Assembly: GCA_945865425.1 (NCBI GenBank)
Contig: CAMBFN010000007.1
Location: 1-32,884, forward strand
Origin: Comamonas sp. lk
Lineage (GTDB): Bacteria > Pseudomonadota > Gammaproteobacteria > Burkholderiales > Burkholderiaceae_C
Direction of reading: 5' to 3'
DNA: 32,884 bases
The notes beneath the pieces are model-generated. The model saw nothing but the letters and a program-made list of their open reading frames with translations, was not told where the DNA came from and searched no databases. The position numbers and the translations under genes were made by a program. This document shows positions 10,430 through 32,181 of the stretch, piece by piece (position 1 is the stretch's first letter; each line of letters begins with the position of its first letter).

Positions 10430-10536
10430 AAAAATAAACGCCTCTTTTCACCGCCCTCCCCCGCGCGCGGTAACGCACAGGCTTGGCAAGCAATAGATTT
10501 GTCAGTCAATGGTTAATTAAATGCCATCCTTGGCGC

Positions 10537-17053: not shown

Positions 17054-18244
17054 ATGGGCCGCAATGATTATGTCACCCGGGTGCACGAGTCCGTCTGCGC
17101 CATCGACGCCGCGCTCTGGGATGCCTTGTTGGCCGATCACGCCGATGCCAGCCCATTTATGCGCCACGCCTACCTCGCAGCGTTGGAGCGAAGCGCCAGC
17201 GCCTGCCCGGCCACCGGATGGCAGCCGGTTTGCATCAGCTTGGAGAGCGACGGCGCCTTGCTTGGCGCCTGCATGGTTTACGAAAAAGACCATTCCTATG
17301 GCGAATATGTGTTTGACTGGGCCTGGGCCAATGCCTATCAACAGCACGGGCTGGCCTACTACCCCAAAGCCACGGTAGCGGTACCCTTCACGCCGGTCCC
17401 CGGGGCGCGTTTGCTGGCCAGCGATGCGGCAGCGCGACAAGCACTCATTGCAGCTTTGATAGCCTACAGCCAGGATAGGGGGATGTCCTCGCTGCATTTG
17501 TTATTCGTTTCTCCACAGGATGCCCAAGCCTGCGCAGATAGCGGCATGATGCTGCGCCACACGGTGCAATTCCACTGGACCAATACCAGGCCCGGATTCG
17601 CCAACTTTGACGCTTTTTTGGCCAGCCTGGCACAGGACAAGCGAAAAAAAATCCGCCAGGAACGACGCAAAGTGCTCGACGCCGGCGTGCAATTTCGCTG
17701 GGCCCAGGGGTCCGACATCCGTGATGCCGACTGGGATTTTTTCTATCGCTGCTACGAGCTTACCTACTTGGAACACGGCAATGCGCCCTACCTTAGCCGC
17801 GCTTTCTTTACCGCTATGCAGCGTGATATGCCGGAAAACTGGCTATTGTTTATAGCCGAGCGCGCAGGCCAGCCTATCGCAAGCAGCCTGATCGGGCTGA
17901 GCAGCGCCAATTCGGATGACGCCCAGCCGCGCGTCGCCTATGGGCGCTACTGGGGAGCGCTGGAGCGCGTGGATTGCTTGCACTTCGAGGCCTGCTATTA
18001 CCAGCCCCTGCAATGGTGCATAGACCACGGCTACGCGCGATTTGAAGGCGGCGCGCAGGGCGAACACAAAATGGCGCGCGCCCTGATGCCGGTGAAAACT
18101 AGCAGTGCCCATTGGCTGGCGCACCCGGCATTTGCCGATGCCGTAGCACGCTTTTTAGAACGCGAAGGTGAGGGCATTCAACAGTACATGGGGCAGCTGC
18201 AACAGCGATCGCCATTTAAGGGCATGCCCGCAGAACCTCAATAA
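17054..18244 (+). CDS. GNAT/FemAB-like N-acyltransferase (COG3146/DUF482-type)
   Basis: SPFMRHAYLAALERS, YGEYVFDWAWANAYQQHGLAYYPK, FEGGAQGEHKMARALMPVKTSSAHW: conserved blocks of the DUF482/peptidogalycan family. Confidence 0.85.
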   Translation: MGRNDYVTRVHESVCAIDAALWDALLADHADASPFMRHAYLAALERSASACPATGWQPVCISLESDGALLGACMVYEKDHSYGEYVFDWAWANAYQQHGLAYYPKATVAVPFTPVPGARLLASDAAARQALIAALIAYSQDRGMSSLHLLFVSPQDAQACADSGMMLRHTVQFHWTNTRPGFANFDAFLASLAQDKRKKIRQERRKVLDAGVQFRWAQGSDIRDADWDFFYRCYELTYLEHGNAPYLSRAFFTAMQRDMPENWLLFIAERAGQPIASSLIGLSSANSDDAQPRVAYGRYWGALERVDCLHFEACYYQPLQWCIDHGYARFEGGAQGEHKMARALMPVKTSSAHWLAHPAFADAVARFLEREGEGIQQYMGQLQQRSPFKGMPAEPQ

Positions 18245-23453: not shown

Positions 23454-24611
23454 ATGAGTAATTCCCACCCGCCGCGCGTAATTCCGGTGTACGACCTGCG
23501 CCCAGGCGCACTCCCCATCCCCCCGGCGACAGCAGGGACTAGCCGTGCGCCAGGGCTTGCGACTAGCGACATTCTGGGACGGCCCTTGCGAGATTTGCGC
23601 ATCAGCGTCACCGACCGGTGCAATTTCCGCTGCAGTTATTGCATGCCCAAGGAAGTGTTTGACAAGGACTACCAGTACCTGCCCCAGTCAGCCCTGCTGT
23701 CCTTTGAAGAAATTGTGCGAGTGGCTAGGGAGTTTGTTGGCTTGGGCGTGCAAAAAATCCGCCTTACGGGGGGCGAGCCCTTGCTGCGCAAGAACCTGGA
23801 GTTGCTAATTGCCCAACTTGGCGCATTGCGCACACGCGAGGGGCAGCCGCTGGACATGACGCTAACCACCAACGGCGCCCTACTAGCCCGCAAAGCCCAG
23901 GCATTGCGTGATGCCGGCCTGCAACGTGTCACCGTCAGTCTGGATGGACTGGACGACCGCATATTCCGCCAAATGAACGACGCAGACTTTCCCGTGTCCG
24001 AAGTGCTAAAGGGCATTGAAGCAGCACAGGCTGTAGGCCTGGGGCCTATCAAGGTCAACATGGTGGTCAAGCGTGGCACCAATGACCATGAAATTCTTCC
24101 CATGGCCAGGCATTTCCGAGGGACCGGAATTGTTTTGCGCTTTATCGAATACATGGATGTCGGTGCCACCAACGGCTGGCGCATGGATGAAGTGTTGCCT
24201 TCGGCCCAGGTCATAGCGCGCTTGCAAACTGAATTTGCGATGCTACCGCTGGAGGCCTCTGCAACGGGCGAGACAGCGCAACGCTGGGCTTACGCCGACG
24301 CGCAGGGCCGAGCGGATGCAAATGCGGGAGAAATAGGCGTCATCAGCAGCGTGACCCAAGCCTTTTGCAGCGACTGCAACCGCGCACGTTTATCTACGGA
24401 AGGCCAGTTGTATTTGTGTCTGTTCGCCAGCCAGGGCTACGACTTGCGCAGCCTGCTGCGCGCAGGCGCGAATGCGCAGGAACTGGCTGGCGCCATAGGC
24501 GCGATCTGGGAGCAGCGCGATGACCGCTACTCGATGCTGCGCGCCACACTGCCCGCGCAGCCTGAGGCAGAGTCCGGGCGGCGGGTGGAAATGAGTTACA
24601 TCGGTGGATAA
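23454..24611 (+). CDS. moaA: GTP 3',8-cyclase (molybdenum cofactor biosynthesis protein A)
   Basis: Radical SAM motif CNFRCSYC, C-terminal cluster CSDC-x13-C ([19 protein letters not shown]), and C-terminal Gly-Gly. Confidence 0.97.
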
Positions 24612-24626
24612 GGTGGATTTCTTTCT

Positions 24627-25928
24627 ATGAAATCGCTGGCAGAAATAGCCGGCGCATTGCTGGGTTATGACCCTGATGCATTAGCGGCACAGTCGGTCAA
24701 TACATTCCTGGCCGATATGGTGCCCCGACCCACGCAAACCGAAGCGCTGCCCCTGATGCATGCATTGGGACGGGTATTGGCCCAGGACATCATCAGCCCG
24801 ATTGACGTACCACCGCACGATAACTCCGCCATGGACGGCTATGCATTCGATGGCAGCGCCTTGTCGACAAATAAGCCTTTGCAATTAGAGCTAGCAGGCA
24901 GCGCACTGGCGGGCACGCCATTTTCCGGGCAGATTGGCCCAGGCCAATGTCTGCACATCATGACCGGGGCCATTCTCCCGCCCGGCCTGGACACCGTGGT
25001 GCCGCAAGAACTGGTAAAGCTGCATAAGAATTGCATTGAGATTGCGCAGGGCATTTTGCAGCCGGGTGACAACCGGCGCTTGCGCGGCGAGGATGTGCAC
25101 TGTGGCAGCGTTGCGCTAACCAAGGGCTCGGTCTTAGGGCCTGCCGCCCTGGGCCTGCTCGCTAGCCTGGGTTTGCCTACGGCACCCATATTTCGCAAGC
25201 TTCGCGTGGCTTATTTTTCCACTGGCGACGAAATTTTGAGCCTGGGCGACAGCCCCCGTGAAGGCGCCGTGTTTGACAGCAACCGTTATACCGTATCGGG
25301 CATGCTGCAGCGCATGGGCATTGAATGCATTGACCTGGGGGTGGTCCGCGATGACCCGGATTTGCTGGAAAGCGCGTTTCGCAAAGCTGCGTCGCAAGCA
25401 GACGCGATTGTGACCAGTGGCGGCGTAAGCGTGGGCGAAGCCGACCACACCAAAGCCATGATGCGGCAACTAGCGCACAGTGATACTGCGGGCGAAGGCG
25501 GCGTGGCCTTTTGGCGCATTGCCATGCGACCGGGCCGCCCTATGGCGGTGGGCCGCATCGGCCGCGTTCCCTTGTTTGGCCTGCCGGGCAACCCGGTAGC
25601 GGTGATGGTGACGTTTTTAGCCTTCGTGCGCCCAGCCCTTTGGCAAATGATGGGCGCCAGCCCAGTAGACCCACAGGTGCAATGCCCGCTGTTGCAAGCG
25701 CGCAGCAGCCAAGCCATTCGAAAAAAGCCGGGACGCACCGAATACCAGCGGGCGATCGTCTCGCGTGCGGCCGACGGCTCGATGCAGGTCCGCACTACCG
25801 GTCAGCAAGGCTCAGGGGTGCTGAGCTCTATGGTGCAGGCCAATGGACTGATGGTCTTGCCGCATGGGCAAGGCGATATCGCCATAGGCGATGTCGTCGA
25901 AGTCATGATGTTCGCAGGCGTACTCTGA
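24627..25928 (+). CDS. moeA: Molybdopterin molybdenumtransferase
   Basis: ISPIDVPPHDNSAMDGYAFDG, VAYFSTGDEILSLG, DAIVTSGGVSVGEADHTK, PLFGLPGNPVAVMVTF. Confidence 0.97.
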   Translation: MKSLAEIAGALLGYDPDALAAQSVNTFLADMVPRPTQTEALPLMHALGRVLAQDIISPIDVPPHDNSAMDGYAFDGSALSTNKPLQLELAGSALAGTPFSGQIGPGQCLHIMTGAILPPGLDTVVPQELVKLHKNCIEIAQGILQPGDNRRLRGEDVHCGSVALTKGSVLGPAALGLLASLGLPTAPIFRKLRVAYFSTGDEILSLGDSPREGAVFDSNRYTVSGMLQRMGIECIDLGVVRDDPDLLESAFRKAASQADAIVTSGGVSVGEADHTKAMMRQLAHSDTAGEGGVAFWRIAMRPGRPMAVGRIGRVPLFGLPGNPVAVMVTFLAFVRPALWQMMGASPVDPQVQCPLLQARSSQAIRKKPGRTEYQRAIVSRAADGSMQVRTTGQQGSGVLSSMVQANGLMVLPHGQGDIAIGDVVEVMMFAGVL

Positions 25929-27248: not shown

Positions 27249-28820
27249 ATGCGTCGGCCAGTCGCCAACCAGTCGATCTTCCGCCCCAAAGCGCCACTGC
27301 GCAGCAAACCGCTGCTAAGTCCAGCGCATTCTAGTCAGACCCCATTGCACCACCCCATACGCTTGACTGTGGTTCGCGCCCTGCGTGCGCTTACTGCCCT
27401 CCTACTCCTGGGCTGTGCCAGCCTCACGCATGCTGCGGAAGGCCCCGCCAGCTTACAAGCGCTGGATGTGCAGGAAAGCAAGTCTCTGCCAGTGGCCGAG
27501 ACGGCCACCCCCGCCGATTTATGGGAGCGCATACGCCGTGGCTACGCCATGCCCGACCTCACAAGCAATCTGGTGCGTGACCGCGAGCAGTGGTACAGCA
27601 CGCGCCCCGATTACATTTTTCGCATGACGGAGCGTTCGCGCAAATACCTCTTTCATATCGTGGAAGAACTGGAGAGGCGCAATATGCCTACCGAGTTGGC
27701 CTTGCTGCCATTTGTTGAAAGCGCATTTAACCCGCAGGCCGTCTCCAGCGCCAAAGCGGCAGGTATGTGGCAATTCATGCCAGCGACGGGGAAGAGCTTC
27801 GAACTCAAGCAAAACGTTTTTCGGGACGATAGGCGTGATGTCCTGGCCTCGACCCGCGCCGCGCTGGACTACTTACAAAAGCTGCATGGCATGTTTGGCG
27901 ACTGGCATCTGGCGCTGGCGGCCTATAACTGGGGCGAAGGCAGTGTCGGCCGCGCTATCGCCAAAAACCAGCGCCTAGGCCTGCCCACCGGCTATACCGA
28001 CCTGGGCATGCCGCAGGAAACCCAGTACTACGTACCCAAATTGCAGGCCATAAAAAACATTGTGGGCCAGCCAGAAATTTTCGGTGCGCAATTGCCCGAT
28101 ATCGGCAACCATCCCTATTTCAAAACCGTGAGCATCGCCAACGACATCGACGTGGCGATGGCGGTCAAGCTATCTGGCGTGCCTCTGGACGATTTCAAGT
28201 CGCTCAACCCCTCGGTGAACAAGCCCATCATCATGGCAGCCGGTACACCGCATATCCTGCTGCCCTGGGACAACGCCGATGTGTTCGAAAAAAATCTGCA
28301 AGAGTTCAAAGGCCCGCGTTTAGCCAGTTGGACGGTTTGGGTGGCCCCGTCCACGGTACGCATTGCTGAAGCGGCCAAGCAAGTGGGTATGACCGAATCG
28401 CAATTGCGAGAGCTCAACAATATACCCCCGCGTATGCTCATCAAAGCCGGCTCGACGCTGCTGGTACCCCGCGCCGCCCATTCGCAAAAAGATATCAGCG
28501 AGTCCGTCGCCGACCGAGGTCAGGTGACTTTCACCCCGGAAATGATTAGCGTGCGCAAATCCATTCGCGCGGGCAAGGCAGACACCGTGGCGTCCTTGGC
28601 CAAACGCCTCAATGTCAGCCCTGCGAATCTGGCCCAATGGAACAAAGTGCCGGCCAACGCAAAGTTCAAACCGGGCCAGGCCCTGGTGATAGTGGTGAAT
28701 GTCCCTGCCGGTTCCGCAAGCAAAGTCAAAAGCAAGCCCAAGACCCCAGCCAAGGCGGTAGCCAAACCAGCGCCTAAGCCAAGCGCCAAAAAACCGCCAG
28801 AAAAGCAGCAAAAAAAATAG
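27249..28820 (+). CDS. mltD: Membrane-bound lytic murein transglycosylase D-like, with LysM-type repeats
   Basis: SLT motifs (ALLPFVESAFNPQAVSSAKAAGMWQFMPATGKSFEL, WHLALAAYNWGEGSVGRAI), two LysM-like segments, Lys/Pro/Ala-rich tail. Start uncertain: ATG 27249 or TTG 27363 (lipoprotein-type LLLLGCAS). Confidence 0.92.
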   Translation: MRRPVANQSIFRPKAPLRSKPLLSPAHSSQTPLHHPIRLTVVRALRALTALLLLGCASLTHAAEGPASLQALDVQESKSLPVAETATPADLWERIRRGYAMPDLTSNLVRDREQWYSTRPDYIFRMTERSRKYLFHIVEELERRNMPTELALLPFVESAFNPQAVSSAKAAGMWQFMPATGKSFELKQNVFRDDRRDVLASTRAALDYLQKLHGMFGDWHLALAAYNWGEGSVGRAIAKNQRLGLPTGYTDLGMPQETQYYVPKLQAIKNIVGQPEIFGAQLPDIGNHPYFKTVSIANDIDVAMAVKLSGVPLDDFKSLNPSVNKPIIMAAGTPHILLPWDNADVFEKNLQEFKGPRLASWTVWVAPSTVRIAEAAKQVGMTESQLRELNNIPPRMLIKAGSTLLVPRAAHSQKDISESVADRGQVTFTPEMISVRKSIRAGKADTVASLAKRLNVSPANLAQWNKVPANAKFKPGQALVIVVNVPAGSASKVKSKPKTPAKAVAKPAPKPSAKKPPEKQQKK

Positions 28821-30315: not shown

Positions 30316-32181
30316 CTATAAAGGTCGGATGCTACCGGGAACAATTTTCGCCCCAAAGTCGCGCAGCCAGCTTTTTACTAAGGGGTTGTTGTAGATGATG
30401 TGCTCCGCGGCCTGCTGGCGCTCTGCGCTGGCGCGCGCATTGCGGCGCGCCGGACTGTCGCTGACGCGTCCAACCTCCACCAGCAAGTTAACCGCAAAGC
30501 CCGCGGCCTGCAGCGCTTGGCTGAGGCGATCGCGGCTGCCCGCTTGGTTGAGCGACTCGCTTTCCACCCGCAAAATCCACTGGTCTTCGTCGCGCCCAAT
30601 CAGTTGCGACTGCAAAGCCAACTCGCGCGCCAAGGCGCTAACCGCCTGCGCCTGCACCAAAGCCTGCACGGTTTGCTGCCAAAAAGCACCATGCTCAGTC
30701 TCCACGAAGCCAGCGACTGCGCCAGTAACATGCTGGTCCAGGCGGCTTTCTTGCTGCACCCGCATCGGAACGCCCACCACGCGGTGGATTGGCGTGCTCT
30801 TGTCGCTGGGCTCAGCATGCAGGCCATGGCGGACAGCCGGGTCATGGACTGAAAGCAATTGGCCCGGTGGCACCAGATCGTTGGTGGCGACTTGCGCGCT
30901 TACAGGGCGATCGGGCTGGACTATTTGCGCAGAAGTCGCAGGAGACAGTGGCACAGCCGGTTTCAACATTTGCACGGGCGCAAGGCCAGGGCTGAATGGG
31001 GCCTCAGGCACCGATTTCAGGCTTTTTTTTTCCGCTGCCAATGTGCCAGAAGCGCTATGCGTATGCAAGGCCCCGTCGCCGGGCTTGAAAGCCAGCAAGC
31101 GCAAGAGCACCATAGTGAGGGCCACATATTCGTCCGGCGCCAAACCTAAATCACCCCGCCCATGCAGGCAAATACTGTAGAGCAACTGTGTTTCATCGGC
31201 GGGCAAAAGCACAGCCAGTCGGGCTATGTCGGCCTCCTGCGGGTCACCGCTGTCGGCTGCGGCAGCCTCGCCCATGGACTGATAAACCGCCATCCGGTGC
31301 AAAACGCTGGCCATTTCCTCCAGCGCAGAGGCGGCATTGAGGCCCTGCACCCGCAGGCTTTCCACGGTTTCCACCACCTTGCGGCCCTCGCTTTGGGCCA
31401 GCGCTTCAATCAAGGCAAACACATAAGACCGATCCACGCTGCCCAGCATTTGTCGCACCGTGAGCTCGGACACCTGCCCACCGCCAAACGCGATGGCTTG
31501 GTCGCTCAGGCTCAGCGCATCGCGCATGGAGCCGCGCGCCGCGCGCGCCAGCAAATGCAAAGAAGGCTTATCAAAGACCACGCTTTCAGCGGCCAGCACC
31601 TGCTCCAAATGGTCCAATATGGTTTGCGGCGCCATAGGCCGCAGATTAAATTGCAGGCAGCGCGAGAGCACCGTGACCGGCACTTTTTGCGGATCGGTGG
31701 TGGCCAGCACAAATTTCAGGTAATCCGGCGGCTCTTCCAGCGTCTTGAGCATGGCATTGAACGCATGCCCGGTGAGCATGTGCACCTCATCGATCATGAA
31801 GACCTTGAAGCGCCCCTGCACCGGTTTATAGACCGCTTGCTCCAGCAGCGCCTGTACCTCATCTACGCCCCGGTTGGACGCGGCATCTAATTCGGTGTAG
31901 TCCACAAATCGGCCAGCGTCAATATCCGTACAGGCCTGACAGACGCCGCACGGAGTGGCAGTTATGCCACCCTGGCCGTCGGGCCCTTGGCAATTAAGCG
32001 ATTTGGCCAAAATACGCGAAACCGTAGTCTTGCCCACGCCTCGCGTGCCGGTAAACAGGTAGGCATGGTGCAGGCGCTGGGTGGAAAGTGCATTGCCTAG
32101 GGCTTGCACCACAGGGCCTTGGCCCACCATTTGCGCAAAATTGCGCGGTCGGTATTTGCGGGCAAGAACCAGATAGGACAT
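30316..32181 (-). CDS. dnaX: DNA polymerase III subunit tau/gamma
   Basis: MSYLVLARKYRPRNFAQMVGQGPVVQALGNALSTQRLHHAYLFTGTRGVGKTTVSRILAKSLNC, Zn-binding CGVCQACTDI, DEVHMLTGHAFNAMLKTLEEPP. Confidence 0.97.
   Translation of the reverse strand: MSYLVLARKYRPRNFAQMVGQGPVVQALGNALSTQRLHHAYLFTGTRGVGKTTVSRILAKSLNCQGPDGQGGITATPCGVCQACTDIDAGRFVDYTELDAASNRGVDEVQALLEQAVYKPVQGRFKVFMIDEVHMLTGHAFNAMLKTLEEPPDYLKFVLATTDPQKVPVTVLSRCLQFNLRPMAPQTILDHLEQVLAAESVVFDKPSLHLLARAARGSMRDALSLSDQAIAFGGGQVSELTVRQMLGSVDRSYVFALIEALAQSEGRKVVETVESLRVQGLNAASALEEMASVLHRMAVYQSMGEAAAADSGDPQEADIARLAVLLPADETQLLYSICLHGRGDLGLAPDEYVALTMVLLRLLAFKPGDGALHTHSASGTLAAEKKSLKSVPEAPFSPGLAPVQMLKPAVPLSPATSAQIVQPDRPVSAQVATNDLVPPGQLLSVHDPAVRHGLHAEPSDKSTPIHRVVGVPMRVQQESRLDQHVTGAVAGFVETEHGAFWQQTVQALVQAQAVSALARELALQSQLIGRDEDQWILRVESESLNQAGSRDRLSQALQAAGFAVNLLVEVGRVSDSPARRNARASAERQQAAEHIIYNNPLVKSWLRDFGAKIVPGSIRPL

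Follow-up and report, generated by a model that had tools for sequence, protein, structure and literature searches.

A conserved nine-A run in dnaX of Comamonadaceae-type bacteria as a probable transcriptional-slippage site for two DnaX proteins

The window, which is the whole stretch of 32,884 nucleotides analysed here, carries on its minus strand (30316-32181) an open reading frame identified as dnaX by its matches to NCBIfam dnaX_nterm (TIGR02397, E = 9e-119) and to the Pfam families DNA_pol3_gamma3 and DNA_pol3_tau_5, with a full-length tau protein of 621 aa as its product. Pfam places the ATPase and lid at aa 21-235 and domain III at aa 237-364 (aa 21-364 in all, 31090-32121, minus strand), and the alpha-binding domain V at aa 506-617 (30331-30666, minus strand). 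An uninterrupted run of nine As lies 62% along the gene (31023-31031, minus strand), in codons GAA AAA AAA AGC for aa 384-387 and in the context GCG GAA AAA AAA AGC CTG AAA TCG GTG CCT GAG. The earlier note had reported this A9 at 31031-31023 in a 621-aa dnaX, and its position, codons and reading are all confirmed from the sequence; its description of the run as lying just after domain III is borne out as well, the last residue of the domain being aa 364 and the first of the run aa 384. The two A8 runs noted elsewhere in the window (17644-17651 and 28810-28817) are real, and A9 runs number five in the whole assembly (2.12 Mb, 72.7% complete), both strands taken together. The clearest sense-strand coding A9 of the assembly besides dnaX is found on the minus strand of L348 (about 1041-1049 of the reversed locus; G000:C159:1951-1959), at about aa 333 of a 445-aa open reading frame resembling an NAD(P)/FAD oxidoreductase. 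Other features of the window include an ilvH RNA leader (RF02993, 74.7 bits) at 10436-10503 on the minus strand, and a tRNA-Arg (tct) at 24590-24683 on the plus strand that was called by ARAGORN only, overlaps a 433-aa open reading frame, is without Rfam support and is probably false.

Simulated indels in the window dnaX place a stop at codon 4 upon loss of one A and at codon 9 upon gain of one. A run read as A8 or A11 meets the TGA at 31017-31019 (minus strand), the A8 product ending in EKKA-stop at 387 aa, and a run read as A10, or a -1 ribosomal slip, leads to the TGA at 31004-31006 (minus strand) with EKKKPEIGA-stop at 392 aa; both ends had been predicted before and are reproduced by the simulation. 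By the Pfam layout, both short products would retain domains I-III and be deprived of domain V. Slips at the dnaX A9 are thus strongly predicted, from the reading frames, to yield a second, shorter, gamma-like clamp-loader protein.

Conservation of the run among close relatives, the loss of which had been named as a possible refutation, was checked in a collection of contigs, in which the best relatives with names are Rhodoferax and other Comamonadaceae. The same-genus genomes with usable dnaX carry nine As, no more and no fewer, in an unchanged codon phase in 34 of 34 cases, mostly at aa 366-389 and surrounded by variable linker, and 109 of 109 further best relatives (L058-L166, named Rhodoferax, Ramlibacter, Curvibacter, Caenimonas, Polaromonas and others) keep the run in phase, one of them as an A10 that arose from GAA -> AAA with the frame intact. 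In the middle and lower score range of the same family, A9 is present in 33 of 60 members and absent in 27 of 60 (in 25 of the 27, not even six consecutive As occur anywhere in dnaX), and these run counts are not random frequencies, because the sample of relatives was ranked by similarity. Since roughly half of these lower-scoring relatives lack the run, its function would not be universal. The three sets gave 161 distinct genes, with exactly A9 in phase 1 in 160 and A10 in one, counts that do not represent independent events since the sampled rows are related to each other. Two genes cut at their 5' end (L018, L034) both carry A9. Long homopolymers are typical contingency loci, and the run could be conceived as a phase-variable tract in which genomic changes of length toggle the C-terminal part of the protein; yet the near-invariant length, the intact frame of the lone A10, and the essentiality of tau in the bacteria studied leave this explanation with a negligible probability.

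Codon choice at the run, compared over the 161 distinct genes, shows selection at the level of the nucleotide sequence. Both lysine codons of the run are AAA in 161 of 161, as against 5-43% AAA use at nine of ten other conserved dnaX lysine columns; the exception among the ten is a conserved lysine near the 3' end (aa 612 of the window dnaX) with 95% AAA (131/138). Glu384 is GAA in 155 of 155, whereas other conserved Glu columns reach at most 76%. The codon following AAA AAA is always A-initial, its Thr or Ser being encoded by ACN or AGY and never by TCN, and this constancy across two residues indicates that the feature preserved is the full set of nine As and not a heptamer. The shifted frames point the same way: with one A lost, a stop occurs within 4 codons in 93% of relatives compared to 2.3% with downstream codons shuffled; with one A gained, within 13 codons in 96% compared to 30%; and both frames are closed within 13 codons in 96% compared to 6%. 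Leu388 is encoded by CTA in 28 genes, a codon making up 1.5% of Leu codons elsewhere, and CTA at this position is followed by A or G in 28/28, CTG by A in 117/118. On the tree, the out-of-frame stop changes type (TGA/TAA/TAG) at least 25 times, and the codon overlapping it changes its amino acid 62 times but its first base only 14 times, a pattern which selection for the out-of-frame stop would be expected to leave.

Considered as a tau-linker protein motif, E-K-K-[T/S]-L does form a conserved island of five residues within variable sequence, and the A run could be its by-product. However, the codons for lysine and glutamate are fixed where synonyms are free, only 4 of the 110 genes that lack the A9 run have an EKK-like peptide, and the out-of-frame stops are left unexplained, so that we regard a purely peptide-level origin as very improbable. 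Still less credit is due to a chance A-rich codon run without function: the two A8 runs within the window speak for it, and conservation, codon bias and maintenance of the out-of-frame stops contradict it. Judged by this comparison of genes, the A9 run with its double stop is not chance, and the dnaX site is real, conserved and selected.

We understand the run as a programmed transcriptional-slippage site through which one dnaX gene would give two DnaX proteins. In RNA polymerase copying the run, the RNA:DNA hybrid of about nine bases would consist entirely of A:T pairs and be able to realign, and realignment would produce mRNAs whose run is shorter or longer. Translation would continue to the end of the 621-aa tau where the run has 9 As or exceeds 9 by a multiple of 3, and would stop soon on all other transcripts, A8 and A11 at the TGA directly past the run and A10 at the TGA a few codons on. 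The gamma-like protein of about 387-392 aa thus generated, comprising domains I-III, could in principle load clamps, without the part that binds polymerase alpha. We judge it highly probable that a single dnaX gene gives rise to two DnaX proteins by programmed transcriptional slippage at the A9; that slippage takes place, in what direction and how efficiently, and that a short protein exists and has a role, is what we infer from the conserved pattern. Transcriptional insertions in E. coli increase exponentially as homopolymers lengthen up to 9, and the E. coli RNA polymerase rarely deletes within homopolymers (PMC5574713); the A8 route may hence contribute little, and A11 may be the main target of the +1-frame stop.

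Between the two mechanisms offered in the earlier note, Thermus-type transcriptional slippage appears to be the likeliest over -1 frameshifting of the E. coli type. The alternative, that gamma is made by a -1 programmed ribosomal frameshift on A_AAA_AAA with no transcriptional slip, can draw on a heptamer in the right phase, on a -1 frame closed soon after the shift in the window dnaX as in 96% of relatives, and on one genus inside the clade that has A_AAA_AAG together with a -1 stop. We nevertheless consider it improbable. A -1 slip needs seven As and one stop, yet nine As and the +1-frame stop are equally conserved. No in-phase A_AAA_AAG heptamer was found, A_AAA_AAA being followed by AGC in the window and both lysines being AAA throughout the 161 genes; Shine-Dalgarno-like matches of at least 5 nt upstream of the run are rarer than in shuffles (3.7% vs 9.3%); and no consistent stem was found on either side. 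In E. coli, moreover, A_AAA_AAA is much less shift-prone than A_AAA_AAG (PMC5009743). Given the right phase of A_AAA_AAA for a -1 slip, some ribosomal contribution alongside transcriptional slippage is possible. Folding upstream and just downstream of the run is slightly more stable than in shuffled controls, and the downstream fold at +12 has mild excess stability (z -0.45 +- 0.17). A hairpin in the RNA directly next to the run was rejected as a stimulator of slippage, since the stems seen were weaker than in shuffles, and an E. coli-like downstream stem-loop gave no consistent signal. Two tRNA-Lys species are an unlikely cause of slippage, as the CUU species appears not to be universal in the clade: lysine tRNAs with UUU and CUU occur in G007, G182 and G251, but G028, G035 and the incomplete G000 yielded UUU alone.

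The run is embedded in a wider conserved element, roughly CGGC[T/G]G-A9-CTCT[G/A]A, as derived from a nucleotide and synonymous-codon table. The window carries a less common variant, CAGCGG-A9-GCCTGA, with the upstream flank CAGCGG at 31032-31037 (minus strand) in place of the family consensus CGGC[T/G]G. GCT before the run is seen 81 times versus 13.5 expected and ACT after the run 113 times versus 9 expected, at positions which are free by the code and unneeded for the stops. This bias suggests that the flanks may serve to tune slippage. In the literature on known systems, we found no mention of this extended flank.

Among those systems, the closest analogy exists to Thermus thermophilus, whose dnaX makes gamma by transcriptional slippage on an A9 with stops in both frames (Larsen et al. 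2000, as reported in PMC5009743 and PMC1088944). Here as there, the A9 is placed in a single tau reading frame after the clamp-loader domains, both other frames have close stops, and the short product keeps the clamp-loader domains. Differences are that Thermus belongs to a phylum unrelated to that of the window's bacterium, that its run is placed about seven-eighths along dnaX (PMC1088944) as compared to 62% here, and that slippage was measured in Thermus whereas we infer it for the window dnaX. Two lysine tRNAs (UUU, CUU) are proposed in Thermus to disfavour ribosomal slippage. E. coli shares the gene and a truncated gamma-like product ending after domain III, but its -1 frameshift uses A_AAA_AAG, a Shine-Dalgarno element and a stem-loop, of which AAG and Shine-Dalgarno enrichment are lacking here and no conserved stem-loop was found; a second stop, in the +1 frame, is conserved in the present clade in distinction to E. 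coli. The dnaX cluster from GeneTack, having A7-A10 runs in Chlorobium and others (PMC3711429), is alike in that a dnaX poly-A run is assigned to transcriptional realignment. In that cluster, gamma is what the genomic frame encodes and recoding is required for tau, while in the window tau is in frame and the slip would give gamma. Caulobacter crescentus represents another route to a shortened DnaX, its gamma being made by proteolysis (as cited in PMC5009743 and PMC4456610), which is post-translational and requires no slippery run.

Slippage in dnaX is thus of a kind already known from Thermus and E. coli. According to reviews, the making of gamma by frameshifting appears to be restricted to enterobacteria (PMC4456610), and a signature of this kind is not retained in most bacteria (PMC3290774). 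Our search for dnaX literature on Comamonadaceae or Betaproteobacteria returned no match, and with Burkholderia no such site was recognised in titles or abstracts; the spread of the dnaX A9 site through Comamonadaceae-type bacteria seems undescribed in the literature searched. That such a site has been preserved throughout a large and common group speaks for a contribution of the short clamp loader to fitness, which has long been debated in E. coli. Since the clade has cultured isolates (Rhodoferax, Ramlibacter, Curvibacter, Caenimonas), the proposal is directly testable.

The A9 genes of the clade cluster on a tree built on the N-terminal part of DnaX, in which deep branches are weakly supported and the placement of L214 is uncertain. 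This is compatible with a gain of A9 near the base of the clade and losses in two genera. In one of these, located inside the A9 clade (L221/L274, G147; L272, G249), the run is gone with no visible replacement. In the other (L218 = L273, G216; L271, G090), TCA AAA AAG CCT GAA replaces the A9 at dnaX aa 379-381, so that A_AAA_AAG stands in phase with a -1 frame stop directly after it (GCC TGA). Both forms have GGAG about 15 bases upstream of the heptamer, a strong hairpin follows closely in L271, and the nearest +1-frame stop is now distant (21 and 43 codons). This genus looks like a probable case of a switch from transcriptional to ribosomal recoding, and the swap of A9 for A_AAA_AAG would be a natural experiment on how the two can replace each other. 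We see even chances for the broader scenario of a clade-wide slippage cassette that has made gamma since the origin of the Comamonadaceae-type bacteria, with tuned flanks and at least one lineage swapped to ribosomal frameshifting. If true, the cassette swap would constitute a natural interconversion of two recoding mechanisms within one gene. Runs of A9 or A10 are scattered elsewhere in the order: in L035/L282 and L283 (f8, aa 491-519), in L296 and L308 (f50, aa 378-380), in L046 and L340 (f13, A10), in L305 (f15, A9 in another phase) and in L307 (A10). These runs look independent. The f8 and f50 runs have a -1 frame stop immediately after them (AAC TGA or AAC TAA).
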